Assembly: GCA_013177855.1 (NCBI GenBank)
Contig: JABLYA010000001.1
Coordinates: 186,001 to 250,000 of the forward strand
Source of the DNA: Ignavibacteria bacterium
GTDB taxonomy: Bacteria > Bacteroidota > Ignavibacteria > Ch128b
DNA length: 64,000 bases
Direction of reading: 5' to 3'
This document shows positions 1,571-5,738 of the stretch, in pieces. The notes below the pieces were generated by a model. The model made no database searches. It saw nothing but the letters and a program-made list of their open reading frames with translations, and was not told the origin of the DNA. Numbering within the stretch: position 1 is the first letter of the stretch; each line of letters begins with the position of its first letter. Both the position numbers and the translations under genes were made by a program.

Positions 1571-2311
1571 TCAATTCTTGAATCGATTAGAAATTATCCT
1601 ATCAATTTTAGAAAATTCTTGAATTACTTCTTTCCTCATTTTTTCGGAGTGAGGATTAAATTTATTCATATCAATGAAAAGTTGAAATGTATCGTTGTTT
1701 GTCCTCTTAACGATATCAAGTAAATCGAAATAACCCTTTGTTCCGATTGATTTATCCGGTAATTTTATGTTTCCGAGAGCCCTTCCAATAAATTGTGTTA
1801 AGCAAAGAGTATAAGCCATTAATTTATCATGTTCGTTTGAGGTCATTTGAATTAATTTAAGACCTTTGTTTGTGAGTATATTGATTAGATAGGACAATTT
1901 TTCAGATTTGATTGAGTTATCAACAATAATAATCTGATGACCATTCAATGAATTTTTAACTGAATCAGGTCCAAACAACGGATGAATTCCAACTATTTTA
2001 TTTTGGGGAAAATATCTTCTTAAAATTTTTTGTGGATAAATTTTAACTGAGCACATTTCAACAATTAAAGTATTTCGATTAATGGAATGTTTAATTTCTT
2101 TTGAAATTTCTTGAATAGATGAAATTGGAACAGCTAAAAATACGATATCGCTTTCACTTAAATTATATGGACGAATTGTTTTTAATCTAGTTAATTTTCT
2201 CAGCTCAGTTTCGCTAATATTTTTATCGTATATGGAAAATTCGAAATCATCTTTAAAAAATTTGTAGAACAATTTTCCAAATCTACCGAAACCAAAAAGA
2301 GATGCTTTCAT
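1571..2311 (-). CDS. tyrA: Prephenate (or arogenate) dehydrogenase, monofunctional
   Basis: NAD(P)-dependent oxidative decarboxylation of prephenate (or arogenate) towards tyrosine; cytoplasmic. The N-terminal Rossmann motif GFGRFG (residues 7-12) and an acidic residue at 29 (D29) point to dinucleotide binding. The TyrA signatures SVK (88-90) and HPLFGPDS (110-117) are present. At 246 residues it is short for the family: there is no C-terminal ACT domain and no fused chorismate mutase. It is the last gene of the aroF operon, and its ATG overlaps the stop of the chorismate synthase fusion by 4 nt (ATGA), implying translational coupling. Whether the substrate is prephenate or arogenate cannot be decided from sequence. 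Confidence 0.88.
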   Translation of the reverse strand: MKASLFGFGRFGKLFYKFFKDDFEFSIYDKNISETELRKLTRLKTIRPYNLSESDIVFLAVPISSIQEISKEIKHSINRNTLIVEMCSVKIYPQKILRRYFPQNKIVGIHPLFGPDSVKNSLNGHQIIIVDNSIKSEKLSYLINILTNKGLKLIQMTSNEHDKLMAYTLCLTQFIGRALGNIKLPDKSIGTKGYFDLLDIVKRTNNDTFQLFIDMNKFNPHSEKMRKEVIQEFSKIDRIISNRFKN

Positions 2312-3654
2312 TCAATTATTTCCTTTTGAATTCTTCGGGATTCACTGATTATTAACTCTAAGATTGATTTTACAAATTCTTCACTGAGTCCTAAGATTTT
2401 GGATGAACCAATCCAGTCATTGATCAGCTGCTTTTCTCTAAACTCGTCATAAACAGGAATTCCATTTTCTTTTTTTAATTGAGCTACTTTTTTGACAAAA
2501 TCATTTCTTGCGCTTAATAAGAGGAGTATTTGCTGGTCTACCAAATCAATTCTCTTTCTCAATTCATCCAACTTATTTTCAGTATTTTGAATTTGTTCTT
2601 GCATTAAAATATGGTCAATCAAAACGAGAGCAGTCATTGACTCGGCCACTGGTACAATACGAGGACAGATACAGGGATCGTGTCTTCCTTCAATTTGAAA
2701 TTCGACCTCCTGTCCATTGTAGGTTACACTTCTCTGCTTTTTTGAAATTGATGAAGTGGGTTTAACAGCTATCCTCATTATAATTTCCGCACCGTTGGAA
2801 ATTCCAGCTTGCACTCCACCGCTGTGATTTGTAATTGTTTCAACTTCGCCTGTTTCTTGATTTATTCTAAACTGATCATTGCATTCACTCCCTTTCATTT
2901 CAGCTGATTTGAATCCACTTCCAATCTCAAAACCACGAACTGCACCAATTGACATTAAAGCTTTTGCAAAATCAGCTTCAAGTTTATCGAAAACAGGTTC
3001 ACCATATCCAGCAGGAAGTCCTTGAACTTTTATTTCTATTACTCCGCCAACTGAATCACCCTCTCTTTTTACTTTTTCAATTAAGTCAATCATTTTTAAT
3101 GCTGCGTTTTTGTCGGGACAACGAACAGGATTTTTCTCAATTTCATTTTCATCGAAACTTTGAATTGAAATATCTCCTATTTGTTTTGTGTATGCTAAAA
3201 TTTTGATACCTCTTTTTTTGAGTAATTGCTTTGCGACTGCACCAGCAGCAACTCTTGCTGCTGTTTCTCTACCGGATGTTCTGCCGCCACCACGATAATC
3301 ATAGATTCCATATTTTTTAAGGAATGTGTAGCCACCATGACCAGGTCTAAATATATTTTTTATATTTTCATAGTCAGAAGTTCTGTAATCTTCGTTTTTA
3401 ATTATCATACAAATTGGAGTGCCGGTCGTTTTCCCTTCAAAGATTCCAGAAACAACTTGGACTGTATCTGATTCTTTTCTTTGTGTTGTAACAGAACTTT
3501 GACCTGGTCTTCTTCGGTCCAATTCTCTTTGAATTTCGGAGATATCAATTTCGAGATTAGGTTTTAATCCATCAATTACCACACCAATCATTTTACCATG
3601 ACTTTCGCCGAAAGTCATTATCCTAAAAAAGTTACCAAATGAATTTCCAGCCAT
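2308..3654 (-). CDS. aroC: Chorismate synthase - chorismate mutase fusion
   Basis: 448 residues. Residues 1 to ~355 are chorismate synthase: MAGNSFG start, GESHG at 16-20, an RPGH/GGYT region, [19 protein letters not shown] and [14 protein letters not shown] near 325-338. It converts EPSP to chorismate using reduced FMN. Residues ~362-448 form a complete AroQ-type chorismate mutase. Aligning it by eye with the E. coli P-protein mutase matches every active-site residue: R366, R383, K394, D403, R406, E407 and Q443 correspond to R11, R28, K39, D48, R51, E52 and Q88. One chain could thus make chorismate and pass it to prephenate. I chose the ATG at 3654 because it lies 2 nt after the aroF stop, has a GGAG site 6 nt upstream and gives the family-typical N-terminus; a GTG four codons earlier is less likely. 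Confidence 0.93.
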
Positions 3655-3656
3655 AA

Positions 3657-4670
3657 TTAACTCCACGCTTTCATTAGTTGTTCAAGCGATTTAATTTTTT
3701 TCATTAGCTCTTCAAACTGTTTAGGTGAGATAGTTTGGTCAGCATCCGAAATTGATTTGTTTGGATCTGGGTGCATTTCAACGATAATTCCATCGGCACC
3801 GGCCGCAATTGCAGCAAGTGAAAGGGGAATTACATAATCCCTTTTCCCAGTTCCATGACTTGGATCAACAACAATCGGCAGGTGAGATAATTTTTTGACA
3901 GCAGGTATTATGTTTAAGTCAAGAGTATTTCGAGTGTAATCGACGAATGTTCTGATTCCTCTTTCGCATAAAATTACATTATAATTTCCCTCAGATAAAA
4001 TGTATTCAGCACTCATTAAAAATTCTTGCAAAGTTGCAGACATTCCTCTTTTAAGCAGAACCGGTTTATTAATTTTTCCAACAGCTTTTAGTAGACGATA
4101 GTTTTGCATATTTCTTGTTCCAATTTGCAAAACATCAGCATACTCGGCAACAATTTCCACTTCACTAACTTCCATTACTTCTGTCACAATTGGAAGTCCG
4201 GTAACTTCTTTTGCTTTCTGTAATAGTTTTAATCCTTCAATCCCAAGTCCTTGAAAAGAATAGGGACTGGTTCTCGGTTTGTAAGCACCACCGCGAAGTA
4301 AATTAGCTCCGCATTTTTTTGCAATTGTTGCACTTTGAATGATTTGTTCTTCACTTTCAACAGAGCAAGGTCCGGCAATTACAACACGATGACCATTGCC
4401 AATTAGTACATTATCAACTTTTACAATTGTGGATTCTTTTTTGAATTCGCGGCTTACCAATTTATAAGGTTTTAGAATTGGAATTACATTTTCAACGCCA
4501 GGCAGAGATTTAAAGATTGCATCGGAAATTTGCCTCTCATCTCCAATTACGCCTATTATAGTTTTCTCTTCTCCATATGATATGTGAGGTCTAAACCCAT
4601 GTTTTTTTATAGTTTCAAGAACATTTTCGATTTGTTCATGGGTTGAATTCGATTCCATAATTATAATCAT
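3657..4670 (-). CDS. aroF: 3-deoxy-7-phosphoheptulonate (DAHP) synthase, type I beta with N-terminal regulatory domain
   Basis: First step of the shikimate pathway: PEP + erythrose 4-phosphate to DAHP. Its 337 residues are nearly the length of the Thermotoga maritima enzyme. Residues 1-70 form a ferredoxin/ACT-like domain, which in that enzyme mediates Tyr/Phe feedback. The barrel carries GPCSVES (100-106), [11 protein letters not shown] (126-136) and DPSHGTGKR (269-277). The four metal ligands known in T. maritima fall at the same numbers here: C102, H272, E298 and D309. No chorismate mutase domain is fused, unlike many Bacteroidota DAHP synthases. The start has a GGAGG site 5 nt upstream. 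It is the first structural gene behind the Phe/Tyr leader and attenuator, so it is probably controlled both by feedback and by attenuation. Confidence 0.95.
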
Positions 4671-4704
4671 TTATTCCTCCGAATTTTATTGAACTATTTA
4701 AACT

Positions 4705-4738
4705 AAAAAACCCCTTGCCAGTAGTTACCAGCAAGGGG
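4705..4738 (-). terminator. Attenuator terminator hairpin (3:4) before aroF
   Basis: On the minus strand CCCCTTGC pairs with GCAAGGGG (8 bp, perfect) around a 12-nt loop, directly followed by six T. It lies between the leader peptide gene and aroF, about 35 nt before the aroF start codon, so it would end transcription before the operon unless its arms are captured by the upstream RNA. Confidence 0.88.
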
Positions 4739-4775
4739 TGTAAAATACTGATAACTACTGGCTACGAGTAGCTGT
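4705..4775 (-). promoter_or_regulatory. Phe/Tyr attenuator with mutually exclusive RNA hairpins
   Basis: Reading the minus strand, region 1 (AGCTACT, within the last sense codons of the leader gene) pairs with region 2 (AGTAGTT) with one G-U pair. Region 2 (CCAGTAGTTATCAG, plus coordinates 4748-4761, starting right after the leader stop) pairs over 14 bp with region 3 (CTGGTAACTACTGG, 4718-4731) with one U-G pair. Region 3 also contains the loop and the inner bases of both arms of the terminator (4711-4738). So 2:3 (antiterminator) and 3:4 (terminator) exclude each other. A ribosome finishing the leader covers region 2 and lets the terminator form. One stalled at the Phe/Tyr run covers region 1 and frees region 2 for antitermination. 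The pairings are seen directly; the mechanism is inferred from trp/phe attenuators. Confidence 0.82.
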
Positions 4776-4833
4776 CAAAGTAAAAATAAAAGTAAAAGCT
4801 AAAACTTCTGTTGAATGTTGAGTTGATGTTCAT
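4762..4833 (-). CDS. Phe/Tyr-rich leader peptide of the aroF operon (23 aa)
   Basis: A 23-codon frame from ATG to TAG upstream of aroF. It encodes 6 Phe and 4 Tyr among 23 residues, with the run FSFYFYFYFDSYS at residues 11-23. The stop codon abuts the antiterminator strand. Such codon bias placed just before alternative hairpins is the hallmark of a ribosome-sensed attenuator, here reading charged tRNA-Phe and tRNA-Tyr, the end products of the pathway it precedes. I see no Shine-Dalgarno sequence. A TATAAT box at 4840-4845 (minus strand) lies 6 nt upstream of the ATG, so the transcript may be leaderless or nearly so; no good -35 accompanies it. It is too short for ordinary gene callers. Confidence 0.82.
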   Translation of the reverse strand: MNINSTFNRSFSFYFYFYFDSYS

Positions 4834-4901: not shown

Positions 4902-5738
4902 ATGAGCAAAATAAATTTTTATTTTCAAGGTGAAAGAGGTGCTTTCTCAGAAGAAGCTGGATTCAAATTCTTTGGTAATAACTCTTCCGGGATACCCTGT
5001 GAGAATTTTGAAGATGTTGTTAAAAGTGTTTTAAAAAAGAAAAATTCTTATGGAATTCTTCCAATTGAAAATTCAAGTATTGGGAGTATACATTCAAATT
5101 ATGATTTGTTATTGAAATATCCAGTATACATTATCGGGGAAATAAATTTGGTTGTAAGACAACATTTGATTGGACTAAGAAACGCAAGTCTTGGTGGATT
5201 CAAAAAAATTATTTCTCATCCAGCTGCGCTTCAGCAATGTCAAAAATTTTTGAATTCATTAAAAAACATAAAAGTTGATTTGAGTTACGATACAGCTGGA
5301 AGTGTAAAATTGATTAAAGAAAACAATTTGTTAGATACGGCAGCAATATCTTCCGAAATTTCAGCTAAAATTTATGGTATGAAAATCTTTAAAAGAAATA
5401 TTCAAGATAATGATAGAAACATAACTCGATTTATAGTTATTTCATCTAAACTTAAATGTCCACGCAAAAATCCTAAGACTTCAGTTGTGTTCACATTAAA
5501 AAATGTTCCAGGCGCTTTGTTTAGAGCTTTGAGCGTGTTTGCACTTCGAGATATTGATCTTACAAAAATCGAATCACGACCAATTCCAGAAAAGCCTTTT
5601 GAGTATTATTTCTACTTAGATTTTAGAGGTTCAATCAATCAAACAGTTTCAAAAAATGCATTAAATAATTTAAAAGAGATTTCTTCTTTTCTAAAAATTC
5701 TTGGTTCTTATGAAGAATCGGTGATAAAGAAAGAATAA
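4902..5738 (+). CDS. pheA: Prephenate dehydratase with C-terminal ACT domain
   Basis: Converts prephenate to phenylpyruvate for phenylalanine synthesis. The catalytic domain (residues ~3-182) shows FQGERGAFSEEA, ENSSIGSIHSNYD, ISHPAALQQC, the TAGS motif and the family's catalytic NITRF (173-177). The ACT domain (~194-270) has GAL at 204-206 and ESRP at 224-227, the phenylalanine-binding signatures, so Phe feedback inhibition is expected. No chorismate mutase domain is fused, so prephenate must come from another protein, most likely the AroC-linked mutase. It is transcribed away from the aroF operon, across a 68-bp gap from the leader gene, and thus lies outside the attenuator's control. Confidence 0.95.
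   Translation: MSKINFYFQGERGAFSEEAGFKFFGNNSSGIPCENFEDVVKSVLKKKNSYGILPIENSSIGSIHSNYDLLLKYPVYIIGEINLVVRQHLIGLRNASLGGFKKIISHPAALQQCQKFLNSLKNIKVDLSYDTAGSVKLIKENNLLDTAAISSEISAKIYGMKIFKRNIQDNDRNITRFIVISSKLKCPRKNPKTSVVFTLKNVPGALFRALSVFALRDIDLTKIESRPIPEKPFEYYFYLDFRGSINQTVSKNALNNLKEISSFLKILGSYEESVIKKE

Follow-up and report, generated by a model that had tools for sequence, protein, structure and literature searches.

The trp, his and phe attenuators combine a run of codons for the cognate amino acid with mutually exclusive RNA helices and an intrinsic terminator. The pheL-pheA system of E. coli (PMC11802643 for pheL) is laid out in this way, with 1:2, 2:3 and 3:4 helices and a U-run at the terminator, and it senses Phe only and controls a CM-prephenate dehydratase. 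A leader with the mixed triplet Phe-Tyr-Phe, aroR, has been described upstream of aroF in Corynebacterium glutamicum (Neshat et al. 2014, as related in PMC11802643 and PMC4046766), and according to the account in PMC11802643 it responds to Phe and not to Tyr, while in Acholeplasma the uORFC-13-1 motif contains a predicted uORF with Phe upstream of aroF (PMC8632094). According to a 2010 account, no leader peptide systems had been known outside the Proteobacteria and Actinobacteria until the hisS case of the Firmicutes (PMC2965389).

Here, we describe a locus in a 64,000-nucleotide stretch of an Ignavibacteria genome (the window) that very probably encodes a ribosome-mediated transcription attenuator of the trp/phe type, reading the supply of charged tRNA-Phe and tRNA-Tyr ahead of a DAHP synthase gene. 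Compared by description only, it resembles C. glutamicum aroR/aroF in placing a mixed Phe/Tyr leader before DAHP synthase for control by this type of attenuation, but lies outside the Actinobacteria and has about 10 aromatic codons where a Phe-Tyr-Phe triplet is mentioned for aroR. The Acholeplasma motif, likewise compared by description, also places a predicted uORF with one or more Phe codons directly ahead of an intrinsic terminator that precedes DAHP synthase, but it belongs to another phylum and includes a ribosome binding site and additional conserved structure. The original prediction that a mixed leader before DAHP synthase had not been described is thus too broad in view of these two systems (PMC4046766, PMC11802643, PMC8632094). 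The mechanism itself is classical and the newness of the case is limited to the taxonomic group, the Ignavibacteria, within the open-access literature, in which we found no report of attenuation in Ignavibacteria or Bacteroidetes; Lopatovskaya et al. 2010 (cited in PMC4833913) may list further groups.

The leader peptide frame, MNINSTFNRSFSFYFYFYFDSYS, occupies positions 4762-4833 of the minus strand, from an ATG at 4833 to a TAG stop at 4764-4762, and is recognized by direct reading, by its Phe/Tyr density and by its conservation. Its 23 codons and stop read ATG AAC ATC AAC TCA ACA TTC AAC AGA AGT TTT AGC TTT TAC TTT TAT TTT TAC TTT GAC AGC TAC TCG TAG, confirming the earlier count of six Phe and four Tyr codons, with the run F-S-F-Y-F-Y-F-Y-F at codons 11-19. 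The frame cannot be longer upstream, because an in-frame TAA lies directly 5' of the ATG. Of all short ATG frames in the window, 664 over the two strands, it alone contains 8 Phe/Tyr in any 10 codons, a density reached by one frame in total over 20 shuffled windows. We found neither a clear ribosome binding site nor a convincing -35 box upstream of the ATG; a candidate promoter element (TATAAT/TATAAA) 6 nt 5' of it occurs in the window and its nearest relative but is absent from the two other relatives described below, and is not claimed. Since the region is AT-rich (32% GC), Phe and Tyr codons are common in it, and two further frames in the window reach 7/10, a density that could favour a reading in which a constitutive terminator or insulator separates two divergent genes and the aromatic frame is an accident, free of translational regulation. 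Against this, the end of the leader coincides exactly with the start of the RNA element that follows.

That element, region 2 (4746-4762, minus strand), is the 5' arm of a putative antiterminator, GCCAGUAGUUAUCAGUA, and its first base is the last base of the stop codon. It pairs with region 3 (4717-4733, minus), UGCUGGUAACUACUGGC, which runs across the loop of the terminator hairpin and the inner part of its arms, as had been foreseen. The resulting 2:3 helix (4762-4746 with 4733-4717) has 17 bp including one G-U pair, so that the original prediction was right about where the antiterminator strand begins and short in giving it 14 bp. Folded alone, the 2:3 hairpin has an energy of -27.7 kcal/mol (z -5.6), matched by 0 of 200 shuffles, and a 16-bp stem between the stop codon and arm 4 was reached in none of 5000 shuffles, the best of which had 12. 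The terminator hairpin 3:4, CCCCUUGCUGGU-AACU-ACUGGCAAGGGG (4711-4738, minus), is followed by a U6 tract (4705-4710, minus), as predicted; its stem, put at 8 bp earlier, has 12 bp closed by the AACU loop, with an energy of -19.8 kcal/mol. It is the one terminator found between 4400 and 5100, where 0.2 would be expected. Region 1 (AGCUACU; 4767-4773, minus) lies within the last leader codons, where it had been placed, and can pair with 4759-4753 to give a 7-bp stem with a 7-nt loop that overlaps the end of the leader. The 1:2, 2:3 and 3:4 helices of the window are mutually exclusive, and the three-way logic proposed for them holds.

The coupling of these helices to translation was modelled by folding, codon by codon, the RNA left free by a ribosome assumed to cover the 12 nt that follow the first base of its A-site codon. 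For the window leader, the terminator probability does not exceed 0.15 when the ribosome is stalled within codons 7-20, and it rises to 0.94-1.0 from codon 21 to the stop, such that the antiterminator is covered by a ribosome at the stop and free when one is stalled in the run. Moving the stall from codon 19 to the stop changes the energy by more than in any of 1000 shuffles, and this fit between the switch position and the aromatic run again argues against an accidental frame. In three related leaders, equilibrium folding gives the terminator at nearly all positions, and their switch must therefore be kinetic, decided before arm 4 exists, as in the classical attenuation model, where the decision is made while arm 4 is still unmade. 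The nascent 2:3 energy drops past the aromatic run in all four leaders.

In the mechanism that we propose, a ribosome well supplied with charged tRNA-Phe and tRNA-Tyr would pass the aromatic codons to the UAG and cover region 2; the 12-bp terminator would therefore form, and transcription would end near 4705. Were either charged tRNA short, the ribosome would stall in codons 11-19 and leave region 2 free, allowing the 17-bp 2:3 antiterminator to form ahead of the synthesis of arm 4 and the operon for DAHP synthase, chorismate synthase-mutase and prephenate dehydrogenase to be transcribed. If the leader were not translated, the 1:2 hairpin would tip the balance towards termination. That the region is transcribed, that its leader is translated and that it responds to Phe and/or Tyr are all predictions here, the sensing of both amino acids being inferred from the codons, the anatomy of the switch and the operon.

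The comparison set consisted of four genomes of one small family, namely that of the window (G000), its nearest genome (G001), and G003 and G005 from another genus. All four keep the orthologous DAHP synthase, the relatives' proteins being 90%, 74% and about 72-76% identical to the window's, and all four precede it with an aromatic run, an overlapping antiterminator and an intrinsic terminator ahead of the first structural gene, despite changed sequences. The leaders (MQMNSRFVDLFYFYFYFTYGYF in G001, MTTKVTKYSIYFKGYFYFTLKL in G005 and MKQKKTIKITKYLFYFTGYFYFMLKH in G003) are 22-26 codons long across the family, with runs in the relatives of FYFYFYF-TYGYF, IYFKGYFYF and LFYFTGYFYF and other residues that vary, and are followed by a terminator of the form CCCCU...AGGGG U6 into which an upstream strand pairs. 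Two pairs of the 2:3 helix are altered on both sides, an A-U becoming G-C in G001 and a C-G becoming U-A in G005, while the remaining differences are mostly G-U exchanges; in G003, the helix is short and bulged. The 7-bp 1:2 stem is the same in G001, with G-U changes, and lies elsewhere in G005 and G003. The conservation of the codon run and the covariation of the stems thus turned out as the original prediction expected, and the retention of both features through sequence change makes an accidental frame beside a constitutive terminator highly improbable.

A covariance model of the switch, run against 391 genomes of the class, gave strong matches in G000, G001 and G005 only, with G003 being recovered when filters were switched off; weaker matches (E 1e-4 and up) were treated as chance. 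G002 and G004, the two other genomes of the family, lack a close copy of the window's DAHP synthase and carry the second copy only. An antiterminator/terminator architecture is also common to T-boxes, riboswitches and leaders bound by regulatory proteins, so that the RNA might answer to another signal, with the frame incidental. Searches for Rfam leader families and the T-box gave no match above family cut-off at the locus, where even the best sub-threshold matches fell far below, and the switch thus differs from E. coli pheL-pheA in matching no Rfam leader family. As the only element upstream of region 2 is the coding frame itself, we consider a leader RNA for some other signal very unlikely indeed.

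The genes downstream make the amino acids that the proposed attenuator would sense, Phe and Tyr being the products of the pathway. Behind a GGAGGA ribosome binding site (4675-4680, minus), which is outside the switch, the operon begins with a DAHP synthase having a ferredoxin-like N-terminal domain and a DAHP_synth_1 domain (3657-4670, minus; domain matches), continues with a chorismate synthase fused to a C-terminal type II chorismate mutase (2308-3666, minus; Pfam) and ends with a TyrA-like prephenate dehydrogenase (1571-2311, minus; PDH_N domain match). The second gene probably starts a little way inside its frame, some codons in, at the ATG that opens MAGNSF. An operon of DAHP synthase, chorismate mutase and TyrA had been predicted, and these parts are present; the chorismate synthase had been missed, and the mutase is fused to it. 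This AroC-AroQ fusion, identified in the window from its Pfam matches and in the three relatives from the length and C-terminal sequence of the ORF, is common to the four family genomes (2308-3666, minus, in the window; L044:5016-6359, L035:2771-4117 and L037:1013-2353). Fusions of DAHP synthase with chorismate mutase are known; to our knowledge, a fusion of chorismate synthase with the mutase is not common.

A PheA-like prephenate dehydratase with an ACT domain (4902-5738, plus), the sole copy in the genome, is divergent from the operon and lies outside the control of the attenuator. The genome also has a second DAHP synthase adjoining a gene that, named by eye from its sequence, we take to be a 3-dehydroquinate synthase; no aromatic leader precedes its counterparts in the relatives scanned (G002 and G004). 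No Trp leader was found at the chorismate-binding, anthranilate-synthase-like gene of G000 and G001. The HisG and HMGL-like (isopropylmalate synthase) families had no match in the whole genomes of G000, G001, G003 and G005, and because of this His and Leu synthesis are probably absent from organisms that keep the synthesis of Phe and Tyr.

The switch might in practice respond to Phe only, or to one amino acid only, while the Tyr codons play no active part: the window leader has more Phe than Tyr codons, and since the similar Phe-Tyr-Phe leader of C. glutamicum responds to Phe with no response to Tyr (PMC11802643), the sensing of Tyr by the window leader is not certain. Tyr codons are nonetheless kept in all four leaders (4, 5, 4 and 4) and exceed Phe codons in G005, and it is the Tyr-branch enzyme, prephenate dehydrogenase, that is in the operon, with the Phe-branch enzyme outside. 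We therefore regard a switch blind to one of the two as rather unlikely and retain dual sensing as the working reading.

Aromatic leaders are not confined to this family. When the sequences upstream of about 134 genes of the DAHP synthase family were scanned across the class, the family designated f8 (L124, L125, L126, L127 and L211-L217) had a conserved leader, ...FYYYFYFPHRGI or similar, before all 11 of the second DAHP synthase copies examined, whose frame closes with a short hairpin, CCCC...GGGG, and whose aromatic run is often preceded by another, GGGG-TTCG-CCCC; those read had no intrinsic terminator or U-run. Family f16 (L011, L018 and L218-L222) had a leader with Phe, Tyr and Trp, ...YFAQWWRNHWA or similar, in seven of seven cases, preceding DAHP synthase and then prephenate dehydrogenase. 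The final codons of this leader fold into a 10-bp hairpin that shows G-U exchanges, and no U-run was present in those read. One genome of family f18 (G145, L188) has the leader MILGNAPYYYFYFFKGRLPAVARSSHS (MILGNAPYYYFYFFKGRLPAV...) upstream of DAHP synthase, followed by an intrinsic terminator; its RNA parts are unlike those of the window's switch. Leader-like frames, ...AYYWWWRYYWFF... in a Desulfobacteraceae sequence (L120) and ...FSYYFWYGYF... in one from Chloroflexi (L064), likewise precede DAHP synthase, each with an intrinsic terminator in between. The wide recurrence of these leaders, with RNA parts that are unrelated, suggests repeated origin. A fuller version, that the class evolved them on several independent occasions and in at least three forms (the window's terminator type, and the hairpins without a U-run of f8 and f16, which might use Rho or translation, say) and that the window's version senses both Phe and Tyr, we put forward tentatively, as a possibility that we lean somewhat against.

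The locus contains a 23-codon gene that had not been annotated, and it would carry leader-peptide attenuation into a group without a report in the literature searched. The switch would explain end-product control of one of the two DAHP synthases, and it may offer a clean test case for a single leader integrating two amino acids in the service of a shared branch-point pathway.
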